Below, one piece after another: positions 1,061 to 6,615 of a stretch of DNA of 64,000 nucleotides. The first letter of the stretch is position 1, and each line of letters starts with the position of its first letter. A model generated the notes under the pieces. The model did not search any database. It was not told where the DNA came from and was given only the letters and a program-made list of their open reading frames with translations. Position numbers and translations under genes: made by a program. Source of the DNA: Mycoplana azooxidifex (GTDB lineage Bacteria > Pseudomonadota > Alphaproteobacteria > Rhizobiales > Rhizobiaceae). The stretch lies in the NCBI RefSeq assembly GCF_014196765.1, contig NZ_JACIEE010000014.1:1-64000 (forward strand), given 5' to 3'.

Positions 1061-1075
1061 GTGATGTCAGGTTAA
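1060..1075 (+). repeat. 16-bp direct repeat at IS junction, copy 1
   Basis: GGTGATGTCAGGTTAA is found here, exactly between istB sequence and the truncated IS66 tnpC. It recurs at 5045-5060, just outside the IS6-type transposase. A 16-bp match is not impossible by chance in 64 kb, but both copies lie at mobile-element junctions. One reading is that it is a terminal scar of the IS6-like element. Confidence 0.45.
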
Positions 1076-1866
1076 CCGGCGATGAATTCCAGCGCCATCG
1101 GCGAGATCGGCGCGACGTTCCTTCCCCGATTGGCACTCGCGGCGATGTCGGCGAGCACGAAGAACTTGCGTCTCGCGTGCAACCAGCATAGCGCCTGCGT
1201 CAGAGGAGCGGGATTGCGATCAACCTTGAACAGCGGATTGTAACCGCCATAGGCATCCGCCTGCAGAATGCCGGTGAAGGTCTTCAGGTGGCGCTCGGGA
1301 TGCTCCTGCCGCCGGTCTCGTGAGGCATAAAACAGAGCAGCAGGTGGTGACTGCCCGCCGAACGGCCGGTCATCCTTGACATAGGTCCATATGCGCCCTG
1401 TATCGGCCTTTCCCTTCGCCAGGATCGGCACGGTAGTGTCATCGCCATGCAGCCGCTCGGCAGCCAGGACATGTGCTTCGATCAGCGAATGGATGGGCTT
1501 GAGCGCAGCGGCACAAGCGCCAACCTGATCGGCTAGCGTCGATAGGCTGAGATCGATCCCCTCTCGGGCATAGCGTTCGCTCTGGCGATTGAGCGGTTGA
1601 TGCTGGGCGAACTTCTCGAACAGGATCATGGCCAGCAGGTTCGGCCCGGCAAAGCCACGCGGCGTCACATGGAAAGGTGCTGGCGGTTGGGTAATTCTCT
1701 CACATCCGCGACAGGTGAACTTCTCCCGCACTGTCTGGATCACCTTCCACTGACGCGGGATCACCTCGAGTGTCTCGGTGATGTCTTCCCCCAGCTTCGA
1801 CAGCTTGGTGGAACCGCAGCAAGGGCAGCTCGTCGAGGCGGAGATGACGACCCGCTCGCGCGGCAA
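1072..1866 (-). pseudogene. tnpC: IS66-family transposase TnpC, truncated core
   Basis: The 264-residue reading frame carries the TnpC zinc-binding region (CPCCGSTKLSKLGEDITE) and the first part of the DDE catalytic domain, including LHGDDTTVP and LQADAYGGYN. It stops after ALEFIAG where the protein normally continues for some 200 residues, so the last catalytic acidic residue and the C-terminal domain are lost. The N-terminus is in another frame (see the fused upstream frame). The element is dead. Confidence 0.9.
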
Positions 1867-2366
1867 GTGTTCAGGAAAGGACTTGCGTGACGGCGTTTGC
1901 GCTCGAAGGCCCTGACGACCGAGGCTTTGGCAGCCATCTCCGCCGCCAGCTCATCTTCGCCAGCGTTGGCTTCAAGTTCCTCGAGTTGCAGCTCCATCTG
2001 CTCGAGGAGCCGCGCCTTGCGCTCGGAGCGGCTGCCGTAAAGCTCACGGCGGACCTTCTCTATCTCCAGCTTCAGCCGCGCGATCAGTGCTTCGGAATGC
2101 GATACGAGCGCCTTTGCGCTGGCAGCTTCCGCCTTGGCGGTCGCCGCTTCAGCCAGCTTCTTCGTGAACAGGCAGGCTTTCTGGCCGTCATGCCAGATGA
2201 CCTTGATCAGGCCACCACCGCGACCGCGGAACACAAACAGGTGTCCGCACATCGGATCGCGCTTCAGCGTCTCCTGTACCATCAGCGAAAGGCCAGGGAA
2301 GCCTTTGCGCATATCGGTATGGCCCGTCGACAGCCAGACCTTCACGCCAACAGGAACCGGTATCAT
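1761..2366 (-). pseudogene. tnpB: IS66 TnpB fused by deletion to the TnpC N-terminus
   Basis: Starting at ATG 2366, the frame gives TnpB (MIPVPVGVKVWLSTGHTDMRKGF...) through CLFTKKL. It then jumps in frame into the coiled-coil N-terminal region of TnpC (LIARLKLEIEKVRRELYGSRSERK). The end of TnpB and the beginning of TnpC are therefore deleted and the two joined. Near 1885 the frame is lost: the correct TnpC continuation (RKSFPEHLPRERVV) is in the frame of the next entry. At least two lesions separate this from a working IS66. Confidence 0.85.
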
Positions 2367-2738
2367 CGCCGTCCCAGCACACAATCAAGAATGCGACCCA
2401 GCGCCTCCGTGTCGACGTCGCTGTCCACCCGGACACGCCGACCACGGCCCAGCTCAATCGTCACGTCGCTACACCTCCGGCGGGAAGATGACGGGACCGG
2501 CGCTTCCGAGGGAGCGGGCTGGGATGCCGGCGCGGCTTCCGACACAATCACAGGCACCAAGGTGTTCGTAGTCTCCGTTCTCGGCTCCTCGATCTGGCAC
2601 AGTTCCTTGCGCCAACGGACGAGCTGGCCGACATGGATACCGGCCGCACGGGCAATCTCGGAAAGCACCGCGCCCGGCTCGAGACCAGCGTCGCCGGCGC
2701 TCGATAGATGTGATCACTTCAATCGGCTGCTTCGTCAT
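2363..2738 (-). pseudogene. tnpA: IS66 TnpA, disrupted by internal deletion/frameshift
   Basis: The beginning MTKQPIEVITSIERRRRWS and the later part EPGAVLSEIARAAGIHVGQL are both typical of TnpA but lie in different frames. They join at about 2680, where some 30-40 bp of the usual sequence is missing. The C-terminal part ends in EALGRILDCVLGRR. TnpA is a small helix-turn-helix protein needed for IS66 transposition. Upstream, near 2795-2818, a sequence resembling an IS66 terminal repeat marks the probable outer end of the element. Confidence 0.8.
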
Positions 2739-2907: not shown

Positions 2908-3234
2908 CGCCAGAAACTAAGTCCCAATACCGCCAAGCCTGCAGTTGCGATCTTAGAGTACGATGACATCAGTTATCCCGTACCCTTGGAGTACCTCGAG
3001 ATAGTCAAAGACGAGCTCCGCACCTTGGGGCGCGACTATGCGAAACAACGTTTGGAAGATCTACGACAGGTCTATGCCGGAGGTGGACGATTGACAGGCC
3101 AATTGATGGAAGGACTGTCGGACGAGCAGCATGCCGAACTAACTATGGTGTTTTCGATGGCGATGCTCAATGAGATCCCACGCTGGCCAGAGAAGGTTGA
3201 GGGAATTCCTTCACAGGCAGTCTCACGGCACTAG
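2908..3234 (+). CDS. Hypothetical protein or gene remnant downstream of IS66
   Basis: The open frame has normal-looking protein content: EYDDISYPVPLEYLEIVKDEL, then a helical stretch TLGRDYAKQRLEDLRQVY and MLNEIPRWPEKVEGIPSQ. It lacks a convincing start; the next in-frame ATG is near residue 70. The sequence before 2906 belongs to another frame that ends in TGA. I do not recognise a family. The IS66 element lies just upstream, so the 5' part may have been lost. Its stop overlaps the stop of the convergent ATP-grasp gene by 4 bp. Confidence 0.4.
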   Translation, partial: RQKLSPNTAKPAVAILEYDDISYPVPLEYLEIVKDELRTLGRDYAKQRLEDLRQVYAGGGRLTGQLMEGLSDEQHAELTMVFSMAMLNEIPRWPEKVEGIPSQAVSRH

Positions 3235-4235
3235 GAGCGTCTACCTCCCGAGTTCGCGAGGTGTCCTGCAATCGCCTTGTTAATGGCGAGGCCCGTTAGG
3301 TCTTCTACCCAACCGTACTGGCCATTGGGGTTAATCTCTAAGAAATAGTATCGGCCGTCCTTGCCCTTGACGAGGTCGATCGCGCCAAATGTCAGTGCCA
3401 ATGATTTGACGAGATCGAGACACTGCCTCTCAACGTGGGGTGGCAGTTCGTGCGCCTTATGTTCAAGGGCCGATGGATCCTTTCCTCTCCGCCAGTCAAT
3501 AGTGGTTTCAGGAGTTGTCTGCGAGTGAATTTCGGCCGAAAATGCCTTGTCTCCGACGACCGTGACCCGAATGTCCAATGCCTTCTCAATATGTTGCTGA
3601 AGGAGGGCGGGGCACATTGAAAGCCGCTGGAGGCCAGCATCGATCGTAGATTCATCCAGTAGCGTTGTGTAGATCTCGCGGGTAACAATGAGCTCTTCCC
3701 ACGGTCCTGAACGTGTACCCAGGTAGCGACCGCCAATGGGTTTGTAGACAACCTTGCAATCAATTGAATCGACAAACTTCCGCGCTTCACGCTCGTCATT
3801 AGTGAAAATCGTTCTCGGAATTTGCATCCCAAGACGCGCAGCTAACCTCAACTGCTTCAGTTTGTTTGACGAAATGCGGACTTGCTCGATAGGGTTCATC
3901 CAGCGTGCATGCCCGAGAGCATCGTAAAGTCCCTGAACCCCCGAATGGATCTCATGGAAGGTGAATTCACGTTCGTCTGGATCGATGTCCTGTCTCATCT
4001 TTGGGGGATCAGGTTTCCGATACCACACAGCTGTCACGTCCGAAGCTCGAATTATCGATCCACCGTCAACTGTGATGCTGCAGTGGTCGGATGTGTTTCC
4101 CAATACCTGAGAGACACTCGACTTTGTGGGAAAGTCGGCGACGTTGAAGAGACTGTGGGCGATGCCCAACGTGTCTAGCTCCACCATGACGTAGTACGCT
4201 TGGATGTCTTTTCTGTCGCTTACAATGAGGATCAT
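3231..4235 (-). CDS. ATP-grasp peptide ligase of the graspetide (MvdC/MvdD-like) type
   Basis: The product (334 aa from ATG 4235) has the layout of ATP-grasp RiPP maturases, which form ester or amide crosslinks between side chains of a precursor peptide. It opens with MILIVSDRKD. It then has AVWYRKPDPP near residues 69-78, the RWMNPIEQVRISSNKLKQLRLAA segment near 111-133, the ATP-binding VVYKPIGG near 162-169, GDKAFSAEIHSQ...DWRR near 228-250, and GAIDLVKGKDGRYYFLEINPNGQ near 284-306 with the Mg-binding Glu and Asn. A longer reading would use TTG 4289; I prefer ATG 4235 because family members begin at this point. The candidate precursor gene lies 89 bp upstream on the same strand. No transporter or protease is next to it. 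Confidence 0.88.
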   Translation of the reverse strand: MILIVSDRKDIQAYYVMVELDTLGIAHSLFNVADFPTKSSVSQVLGNTSDHCSITVDGGSIIRASDVTAVWYRKPDPPKMRQDIDPDEREFTFHEIHSGVQGLYDALGHARWMNPIEQVRISSNKLKQLRLAARLGMQIPRTIFTNDEREARKFVDSIDCKVVYKPIGGRYLGTRSGPWEELIVTREIYTTLLDESTIDAGLQRLSMCPALLQQHIEKALDIRVTVVGDKAFSAEIHSQTTPETTIDWRRGKDPSALEHKAHELPPHVERQCLDLVKSLALTFGAIDLVKGKDGRYYFLEINPNGQYGWVEDLTGLAINKAIAGHLANSGGRRS

Positions 4236-4324
4236 GACCGTAAACTTTGGAGAACGGATTGCTCCAGTTGAAGCAATCCGTGAGGTCAAGCATTCGAGGA
4301 CAAAACAGGCATCAGATCTGGTGA

Positions 4325-4915
4325 CTATTCCCAGAGTGCCGTGTTCTTACAATCGGCACCTGCTGCATCCTCACGATGACCAACACCATACCAGGTCGTC
4401 TTGTAGGACTGGACATAGGATTCGCATCGCCTCGGCATTGGAGATGCGCCTTGATCCGCAGCCATCAGTGAACGGACGCGGGAAAGCAGGTCCTCCCGAG
4501 AAAGGCCCTCAAGTTCTGAGAGATCCATCGGTGTATGAACAGGCGACACGGCTGTCATTCCAGCGAATGTGCCTCCAGTCGTGCTGATGACCTCGGAAGC
4601 AATCAGGAGTTTCTTGGTCTCAGACTCGCGTATATCCGCCTTAAATGGAATCTCATATGCCTGGACGGCTTCTCCCGCGACAGCAAATCCGCTGGCCACT
4701 CCTGACGAGACGAATTGATCTGAACGCAAGTAAAACACGCGCTCAGTCGGAATTCTTACCTCATTGCCTTCCAGTTTGAAGCCACAATAGACAATTCCAA
4801 TAATTCCGTCAGAAGAACTCCCTGAGGGGTCTGGCAGAGGGAGCCCATACAATGTCATTGTTTGCGCAGGTGATTTTTCTGAAGAATGCGAACTTCCATG
4901 CGAAATAGCGCTCAT
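4325..4915 (-). CDS. Candidate graspetide precursor or partner of the ATP-grasp ligase (unknown family)
   Basis: The 196-residue protein starts at ATG 4915, where GGAGG stands 5 bp upstream. The gene precedes the ATP-grasp gene on the same strand with nothing in between. I do not recognise the fold. Residues 20-130 look like a beta-rich domain (IVYCGFKLEG, RVFYLRSDQFVSSG), followed by a short amphipathic helix (PMDLSELEGLSREDLLSRVRSLM, 129-151). The C-terminal 35 residues are different in character: Cys164, Thr173-Thr174, several acidic residues (E182, D183, D188, E196) and a second Cys189. A tail with hydroxyl and carboxyl side chains is what this ligase class crosslinks, so it could be the core. 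The size is large for a precursor, and a separate accessory role is possible. Confidence 0.55.
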   Translation of the reverse strand: MSAISHGSSHSSEKSPAQTMTLYGLPLPDPSGSSSDGIIGIVYCGFKLEGNEVRIPTERVFYLRSDQFVSSGVASGFAVAGEAVQAYEIPFKADIRESETKKLLIASEVISTTGGTFAGMTAVSPVHTPMDLSELEGLSREDLLSRVRSLMAADQGASPMPRRCESYVQSYKTTWYGVGHREDAAGADCKNTALWE

Positions 4916-5044
4916 GTCCGCCTCCAAAAGAATTCGTACACGACATCTAGTGCTTGCACCTGTATGGATATTCACCTTTATAAGCTACAGCTAAAGGTGA
5001 TAATTATCAAGCATGCTTCCCGGACCGAACTTAGGCTTTCAGCT

Positions 5045-5094: not shown

Positions 5095-5823
5095 TCAGGC
5101 AGTTGTCCCGGTCACAGCCTTCCAATGCGCGATCGCCCTGAGGCGATGCAAATGGACGGGAATAGCTGAGCGTTTTGAACGAGGCGGCACGAAGAGATTT
5201 CGGACCGCCGAAAAGACGCTCGTGAAGCGTTGCAATGCGCCTGGCGAGCGAAACCGTTGCACCAGCCGCTCCCGTTTTCGCAGTGGCAAATGTGAATTTT
5301 CGGCGCGATTGTTCAGCCCTTTGTGTGATCGATGCTCGACGGTCGGCATGATCTGACGCCGTGCCGCGCCGTAGGAACGAAGCTTGTCGGTGACGATGCG
5401 CTTCGGCACCCGGCCCTTCGTCGACGCGCCACCGAACAAAACAATGAGCTCTCTGCCATAATAGGCATTGATGACTTTGCCTTCAGGCGTGGGCAGACCT
5501 ATGGAACGATCGTGTGTGACTTGGAGCGCAGGCGACCGGTCATCCTGCTGCCTGACCGAACTCTGGAAACCTCTCGCGCCTGGCTCGCTGCACACCCATC
5601 GATATCGACCGTCGCGCGCGACCGCGGCGGCGGATATGGCGAAGCAATCCCACTCCGAGACGGTCTGAAACGAGACATCTATGCCACGCTCGGCAAGCGG
5701 ATCTTCGACGTCACGCAGGCTGAGAGCAAACCGATAGTAAAGCCATACCGCGTGGGCAATGATCTCAGCGGGCAAGTATCGATAGTGACCGCTTTGGCGG
5801 CGGAAGTGGGTAAGGCGGTGCAT
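5095..5823 (-). pseudogene. IS6-family transposase, centre replaced by an ISL3 fragment
   Basis: The N-terminal part (YLPAEIIAHAVWLYYRFALSLRDVEDPLAERGIDVSF) and the C-terminal part (RIVTDKLRSYGAA, NNRAENSHLPLRKRERLVQRFRSPGALQRF) are typical of IS6/IS26-type transposases. The middle, which should hold the WHLDE motif with the first catalytic Asp, is absent. Instead the frame runs antisense through an ISL3-type sequence read on the other strand at 5461-5655. Although the reading frame is open from end to end, the enzyme cannot be active. Confidence 0.85.
5461..5655 (+). pseudogene. ISL3-family transposase internal fragment
   Basis: Plus-strand translation gives IGIDDFAFRRGQTYGTIVCD, LERRRPVILLPDRT and a VARDRGGGYGEA segment. 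These are the region around the first catalytic aspartates of ISL3-family transposases. Only about 65 codons are present, with no ends, start or stop of its own. The fragment fills exactly the gap in the IS6 transposase, so it is a captured piece and not a separate insertion sequence. Confidence 0.8.
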
Positions 5824-5944: not shown

Positions 5945-6196
5945 ATGGCCAGCATGACGATTCGCAACATCGACGATCGGCTGAAGCAGAGGCTGCGCAT
6001 CCGTGCCGCGACGCATGGCCGGTCGATGGAGGACGAGGCTCGCGACATCCTTAAAACGGTCTTGGCCCAGCAGGAACCGACACCCGGCAATCTCGCCGGC
6101 GCCATTCGCGCCCGCCTGCAGCCGCTCGGCGGCATCGAGCTGGAAATTCCGGCACGCGAGCCGATCCGTGACGCCCCGGATTTTTCCGCCGCATGA
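5945..6196 (+). CDS. FitA/VapB-type ribbon-helix-helix antitoxin
   Basis: The protein is 83 aa long. The N-terminus MASMTIRNIDDRLKQRLRIRAATHGRSMEDEARDIL is the ribbon-helix-helix DNA-binding domain of the FitA/VapB group. The C-terminal part, rich in Pro and acidic residues, would wrap the toxin. A GGAG lies 8 bp before the ATG. The stop overlaps the toxin start by 4 bp (ATGA), so translation is coupled, as is usual for such pairs. It neutralises the PIN toxin and, with it, probably represses the operon. Confidence 0.9.
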   Translation: MASMTIRNIDDRLKQRLRIRAATHGRSMEDEARDILKTVLAQQEPTPGNLAGAIRARLQPLGGIELEIPAREPIRDAPDFSAA

Positions 6197-6615
6197 TCGT
6201 TCTTGACACCAACGTCATCTCTGAGCTGCTGCTGCCGGCCCCGGAGCCTTCCGTGGTCGATTGGCTCGCAGAACAGCCGTCCGTCGCGATCTTCACGACC
6301 GCCGTCACCGAGGCCGAAATCCTCTACGGACTGCGTTTACTTCCCGATGGCCGGCGCAGACGCGAGCTCGAGGCGGCCGTCCTGCCGATCTTTGCGCAGG
6401 ACCTCGCCGGTCGTGTCCTGCCGTTCGACCGCGACGCGGCCGACATCTACGCCTCGATTGCTACGGACAGGCGCAGAATTGGCCGCCCCATCAGCCAGTT
6501 CGATGCGCAGATCGCCGCCATCGCGCTTTCTCGCGGAGCAGTGCTGGCGACACGAAACGTTACCGACTTCGAGGATGTCGGCCTCAGCATCATCAACCCA
6601 TGGGAGATCCTCTGA
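6193..6615 (+). CDS. FitB/VapC-type PIN-domain toxin
   Basis: The 140-residue PIN-domain ribonuclease shows the conserved acidic residues in order: MIVLDTNVISELL (first Asp), VTEAEILYGL (Glu), and FDAQIAAIALSRGAVLATRNVTDFEDVGL (two Asp). It is full length for the family and has no lesions. It overlaps the antitoxin gene. The recombinase gene starts 1 bp after its stop, so all three may be cotranscribed. Toxins of this class cleave RNA such as tRNA; the target here is not known. Confidence 0.92.
   Translation: MIVLDTNVISELLLPAPEPSVVDWLAEQPSVAIFTTAVTEAEILYGLRLLPDGRRRRELEAAVLPIFAQDLAGRVLPFDRDAADIYASIATDRRRIGRPISQFDAQIAAIALSRGAVLATRNVTDFEDVGLSIINPWEIL

Follow-up and report, generated by a model that had tools for sequence, protein, structure and literature searches.

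A gene for a 196-residue protein lies directly upstream of an ATP-grasp peptide ligase gene in a 64,000-nucleotide stretch of Mycoplana azooxidifex DNA (contig NZ_JACIEE010000014.1, positions 1–64,000; hereafter the window), and the question is whether this protein is the substrate of the ligase. The original prediction saw here either a new class of graspetide precursor with a large leader domain or a precursor-independent system. The first alternative is supported: the 196-residue protein is probably a ribosomal graspetide precursor and the adjoining ligase its synthetase, with a putatively folded leader and proposed nested esters in the product. Homologues of the protein lie beside ligases that belong to one clade with the window ligase, and their tails repeat the Thr/Asp layout of the window protein. 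The precursor-independent alternative found no support.

Organization of the locus

The features of the locus are listed in Table 1. The precursor gene precedes the ligase gene on the minus strand with a gap of 89 bp to the ligase ATG at 4235, which agrees with the arrangement first described, and both frames are complete. The in-frame ATG at 4235 yields a ligase of 334 residues, and an alternative TTG start at 4289 gives an ORF of 352 residues (3231–4289). As first described, the pair lies between IS66 and IS6 remnants. Both flanking elements are broken; the transposase of the IS66 flank is shortened to profile positions 17–240 of 387. The GC content of the pair is 0.52 versus 0.606 (SD 0.028) for the 1.7-kb stretches of the window, and the lowest of these stretches (0.511) overlaps the pair. 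The reported lack of a transporter or protease was borne out for the eight flanking ORFs scanned. A FitA-like antitoxin and PIN-domain toxin pair is encoded at 5945–6615 on the plus strand.

Table 1 Features of the candidate precursor–ligase locus, in window coordinates.
Feature	Coordinates	Strand	Basis
Candidate precursor, 196 residues	4325..4915, stop codon included	-	Open frame with ATG start; homologues upstream of the two closest ligases listed
Ribosome-binding site of the precursor gene, GGAGG	4921..4925	-	Sequence; five bases before the ATG
Conserved front domain, residues 17–105, proposed folded leader	4601..4867	-	Shuffles and β-rich model
Gly114-Gly115, possible leader cleavage site	4571..4576	-	GG in two of three members; cleavage proposed
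Proposed core, residues 164–189 (Ser170, Thr174, Asp183, Asp188; flanking Cys164 and Cys189)	4349..4426	-	Tail alignments and patterns; linkages proposed
MvdD-type ATP-grasp ligase, 334 residues, graspetide synthetase	3231..4235	-	Pfam, NCBIfam, alignment, solved relatives, trees
IS66 remnant, one flank	1072..2668	-	TnpA/TnpB and shortened transposase
IS6-type transposase remnant, opposite flank	5095..5823	-	Match under the NCBIfam cut-off

Identity of the ligase

The window ligase matches the Pfam MvdD pre-ATP-grasp (4.6e-14) and RimK (5.5e-8) models, both over the Pfam cut-offs. Both domains required for membership of the graspetide synthetases, in the sense of the broad MvdD-like ATP-grasp class, are thus present, and the MvdC/MvdD-class ligase that had been recognized is confirmed at this level. 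All ten NCBIfam models listed score it under their cut-offs, with bit scores (cut-offs in parentheses) of 248.5 (350) for TIGR04187, the best match, 209.3 (425) for MvdC, 205.7 (475) for MvdD and 108.6 (230) for grasp-with-spasm. Because these scores fall under the curated cut-offs, the ligase is not assigned to any of the four families.

Eight such ligases, the window ligase included, share the invariant residues D221, R223, K165, E300 and N302, among others. They include presumptive ATP-site residues. The profile of the eight matches solved ATP-grasp peptide ligases, for example 5ig9 (7e-74). In the same alignment the D-x-R motif keeps D221 and R223 around a variable middle residue; it reads DFR in the available text of PMC13097080. 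Graspetide synthetases are described there as phosphorylating a carboxylate, which is then attacked by a Ser, Thr or Lys side chain.

Relatives and linkage of the two genes

The ligase search of the genome_contigs collection used the best 80 of 558 confirmed stretches. The ligase loci examined number 123 and comprise 118 distinct ligase stretches; 118 loci extend at least 700 bp upstream of the ligase and five less. Among the matches listed, the closest ligases are those of Sphingomonas folli (locus L029, 44% identity) and of a Methanoculleus chikugoensis contig (L030, 43%). Each has a homologue of the 196-residue protein directly upstream, of 193 residues in Sphingomonas (30% identity over 193 columns, E 6e-18) and 191 residues in Methanoculleus (26% over 146 columns covering window residues 22–158, E 2e-12), where the E values relate to the retrieved loci only. 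The homologue occurs in these two of the 123 loci and is absent from the other 121. The three ligases form one clade, with SH-aLRT 97 in a tree of 102 rows, which excludes low scorers and six loci whose translated stretch contains stops, and with bootstrap 100 and SH-aLRT 98 in a tree of 42 selected rows. Linkage of precursor and ligase holds in 3/3 members of the ligase clade. The locus had been called an orphan, which no longer applies, since precursor homologues adjoin the two closest ligases listed; each clear homologue found adjoins a ligase of the same clade, and two homologues in the same position next to a close ligase exceed what chance would give.

ORFs of at least 15 residues near the ligases were compared between the three loci. 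Those common at E <1e-4 are the precursor, the ligase and one ORF antisense to the ligase, which leaves the precursor and the ligase as the only sense genes clearly common to the three. Weaker matches between loci (E of at least 0.005) exist and are inconsistent. No peptidase, methyltransferase, 2OG oxygenase or β-lactamase gene is clearly common to the three loci.

The Mycoplana genome itself contains a single copy. The ligase query matched 13 of 397 genomes of the order at E 1e-15; at E 1e-40 it matched 2 of 385 genomes in the class and 4 of 398 in the phylum, and all three counts include the Mycoplana genome. Among 9023 ORFs of 140 loci, the profile built from the three precursor-family members yielded no further clear member; the next match (E 0.003) lies in a weak-hit locus lacking a convincing ligase match. 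Across 394 genomes of the window's family, the own match is clear and is followed by ten weak hits (E 0.013–0.081, six with internal stops), and the six other genomes of the genus in this sample gave no match. The known member alone reached a clear score among 199 genomes of the Sphingomonas family, and the 40 genomes of the Methanoculleus family gave the known member clearly and one weak hit (E 0.001) with two stops. Within about 3 kb of the eleven weak-hit loci, no ligase match was better than E 0.3. Searches by tblastn found no homologue on plasmids with each of the three proteins or in phages with the archaeal protein alone, and a scan of viral_contigs found none. When genome_contigs, the collection that contains L029 and L030, was scanned directly by pattern with the 196-residue protein, nothing was returned. 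The direct scan is therefore insensitive, so that claims of absence rest on the ligase-anchored and profile searches, and members beyond the three known may exist. The gene pair is probably rare and spread horizontally.

The archaeal pair has a GC content of 0.36 versus 0.63 for the remaining contig, which suggests that a methanogen recently acquired a unit for peptide cyclisation; a misassembly might also produce this contrast. In the deposited sequence, the frame of the archaeal ligase lacks an ATG, GTG or TTG codon where its start is expected (L030:3468-3738), and this copy may thus be damaged, misread or started at another codon. The Methanoculleus contig also encodes an HAE3-type transporter and a weakly SLATT_4-like protein (L147:8842-9471; 1.5e-5, under the cut-off), the latter ~ 1 kb upstream of the pair and in the same orientation. 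In Sphingomonas folli, the pair is followed on its own strand by a cyclophane cluster of the YhhA/B/C type that includes an HExxH peptide hydroxylase (L146:7635-10173 and L029:5090-5248). Its radical SAM enzyme was considered as acting on the 193-residue protein and rejected; the enzyme is YhhB with its own YhhA precursor, and the cluster is therefore taken as separate.

The front domain of the candidate precursor

Conservation within the precursor family is found in the front (about residues 20–115) and in the tail, and the linker between them is not conserved. The local alignment of the fronts beats 2000/2000 shuffled pairs in each of the three pairs, whereas the score of the window–Sphingomonas linker is reached by 115/2000 shuffles. 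The 196-residue protein has no match in Pfam, NCBIfam or PADLOC, and a PHROGs search with the three members gave nothing convincing (best E 0.08).

AlphaFold2 modeled the full 196-residue protein poorly (pLDDT 43.4). The front domains alone, supplied as three sequences with the archaeal one as first row, are predicted with moderate confidence to adopt a β-rich fold (pLDDT 69.5); the blocks up to residue 90 mostly score 80–89, with two weaker. Foldseek returned no hit at E 0.001 for this model in the PDB or BFVD, and VIA-align gave no confident match, the best being Cpn10 (Z 3.4), with weak GroES-like rows. These comparisons are compatible with a known fold as well as with a new one.

The Gly-Gly pair that may mark the end of the leader follows Glu108, invariant in the three members, by seven residues, and is present in two of the three. 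The leader motif Phhx(1,2)h, reported for about half of graspetide precursors in the available text of PMC8939145, has no occurrence in the window protein; the other two proteins contain it at positions 87, 134 and 176, which do not align. By hhalign, the leader profile is unrelated to a set of 14 precursors, twelve of the TKT type or near it and two Tat-like (P 0.48), and to four Tat-like precursors alone (P 0.19).

The candidate core

The last 35 residues of the window protein contain Thr-Thr, three Glu, two Asp and two Cys, much as had been pointed out. Two patterns occur in all three tails. The first, [ST]x(1,3)Tx(8,9)Dx4D, corresponds to Ser170-Thr174-Asp183-Asp188 in the window protein, Ser167-Thr169-Asp179-Asp184 in Sphingomonas and Thr168-Thr172-Asp182-Asp187 in Methanoculleus, and the second is DxxG[AG]D[CS]. 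The patterns were picked after the tails had been inspected, and the background of 1586 ORF tails includes the family's own three; read accordingly, the first arises by chance in 74, 168 and 90 of 20,000 shuffles and in 8/1586 ORF tails, and the second in 5, 11 and 4 of 20,000 shuffles and 3/1586 ORF tails. A looser version often arises by chance (3049 to 4826 of 20,000 shuffles; 177/1586 ORF tails).

The alignment of the window and Sphingomonas tails (RCx4QSY..TWxGV...DxxGADC) has a score reached by 0/2000 shuffles. The archaeal tail is not significantly similar to either (1233/2000 shuffles against the window, 153/2000 against Sphingomonas). Tail alignment is therefore significant in one of three pairs, and the spacing is common to all three. 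The Cys pair flanking the core is found in the two bacterial members; the archaeal tail lacks it.

Proposed mechanism and alternatives

As a large and probably folded leader, the conserved front domain would dock on ligases of this clade, and the variable linker would carry the C-terminal core to the active site. There the ligase would phosphorylate Asp side chains and join them to Ser/Thr hydroxyls. The tail spacing resembles that of fuscimiditide; two nested esters in a stem-loop, formed under guidance of the front domain, are proposed, most likely Thr174-Asp183 as the inner and Ser170 (or Thr173)-Asp188 as the outer. The Cys pair of the bacterial members might form a disulfide. Leader removal, perhaps at a site following Gly115, would fall to a peptidase from outside the locus; a single C39-type domain occurs in the genome, on a different contig. 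For the 196-residue protein we infer substrate role, connectivity, leader docking, cleavage and biological role. More tentatively, the ~ 100-residue β-rich domain, fused in cis to the core, could act as both recognition element and chaperone, making the pair a self-sufficient two-gene unit that moves between bacteria and archaea.

Judged from sequence, the position of the gene argues for a precursor, as relatives of the ligase have TKT-type and other candidate precursors directly upstream, and so does a tail that is conserved between the window and Sphingomonas proteins while the linker is weak. The insignificant alignment and missing Cys of the archaeal tail, the lack of Phhx(1,2)h in the window protein, Gly-Gly in two of three members, a family of only three known members and the missing archaeal start codon argue against it. 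Another conceivable role for the protein is that of a chaperone or recognition partner of the ligase, like MirC for rosaritide, with the true precursor a small gene elsewhere. Partner-dependent synthetases exist (PMC13097080, available text), and the front looks like a domain, with GroES-like rows in the fold comparison that are weak (best Z 3.4). A partner would nevertheless have no need of the conserved Ser/Thr/Asp spacing in its tail, and no third sense ORF of at least 15 residues is clearly common to the three loci; this role is unlikely.

It is somewhat less probable still that the protein stapled at its tail by the ligase is never cleaved, so that the working product retains the front domain instead of losing it as a leader. 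Such a product would fit the conservation of the front in 3/3 members, the lack of a peptidase gene common to the three loci and the cyclisation by a synthetase of constructs of up to 258 residues described in the accessible part of PMC12291112, but not the Gly-Gly found after the front in two of the three, nor the poorly conserved linker, which resembles that of a leader–core design. Least probable is that the locus is no longer functional and represents what is left of a graspetide cluster caught between insertion sequences. The broken flanking elements, the overlap with the lowest-GC stretch of the window and the lack of a match in the six other genomes of the genus sampled would suit a remnant, yet both frames are complete, the precursor gene has a ribosome-binding site, and the other two loci clearly share these two genes alone, so that nothing obvious is missing from the window locus. 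A ribosomal precursor with its synthetase remains the preferred reading.

Comparison with known graspetides

Fuscimiditide (ThfA/ThfB; graspimiditides, group 13) has nested esters Thr3-Asp22 and Thr7-Asp18, with loops of 10–12 residues in the group (PMC12291112, available text). The C-terminal core of the window family likewise offers hydroxyl and Asp residues at two positions each, set for nested esters, but the loop would be 8–9 residues, the window protein lacks the RPFG leader motif, and no neighboring O-methyltransferase is clearly common to the three loci. The ThfA leader is described in available portions of PMC13003496 as mostly unstructured, a short motif in unstructured sequence as often in graspetides, whereas the window front is predicted to be β-rich.

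Corallotide (group 15, CorA/CorB) also has a large precursor whose N-terminal leader domain is folded; for the window protein, the folded state is a prediction. CorA residues 1–86 are predicted and measured to be helical (PMC13097080, available text), unlike the β-rich model of the window-family front; the window protein has no KxxxD repeats, and no 2OG oxygenase or β-lactamase is common to the three loci. CorB is called a TIGR04187 protein in the same text, and TIGR04187 is also the best NCBIfam match of the window ligase, under the cut-off. The precursor length, which had seemed unusual, is not: proteins of 110–190 residues lie upstream of many relatives, and the tagged corallotide precursor is ~ 22 kDa (PMC13097080, as available). 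Rosaritide (group 21, MirA/B/C) requires a protein domain beyond the ligase, as the window system would if its front domain is essential; this domain is a separate protein in rosaritide and part of the candidate precursor in the window.

TKT-type precursors (L016–L018, L033, L041 and others) also lie directly upstream of related ligases. They have repeated TKTxxxESDD cores and short PFL...YD leaders, and their profile is unrelated to the window family. Graspetide groups are numbered up to 43 in the available text of PMC13097080, and no such large-folded-leader family was found in the literature searched, which consisted mainly of open-access texts without the supplements where group lists would stand. 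The pair is best read as belonging to a rare new group of graspetides; corallotide already provides precedents for large precursors and for a helical leader domain. With a whole conserved domain before a fuscimiditide-like core, the pair would be a small system of two genes in which the contribution of a folded leader could be studied, and its ligase would be a candidate for stapling tails onto folded proteins.

Observations at related ligase loci

Among the next closest ligases listed (37–39% identity) are those accompanied by Tat-like candidate precursors of ~ 125 residues (L011:1024-1401, L012:1033-1410, L013:1003-1380 and L015:1028-1405). L031 and L036, with ligase sequences identical to those of L014 and L015, also have such candidates. 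These begin with RRRFL, which we take to be a twin-arginine-like signal, and end with TTRC...DSDQDSHPDGFKPGE; they are possibly graspetides exported through Tat. Like the window tail, theirs contain Thr-Thr, Cys and several Asp. However, neither tail nor profile is significantly similar to the window family, and homology of the TTRC...GAPTC tails to the window tail was unsupported by tail shuffles and profile comparison.

In 29 of the 123 ligase loci (for example L018:2451-3113, L016:2303-2959 and L033), a protein of 200–300 residues directly follows the ligase. It has at least two hydrophobic segments by a simple hydropathy count and often an FFWP- or IWP-like start; the seven scanned had no convincing NCBIfam match. 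These are possibly the uncharacterised membrane proteins mentioned in the available text of PMC8939145. Graspetide-type ligases are also encoded on 21 contigs classed as viral (L125–L145), either as phage cargo or in host flanks.
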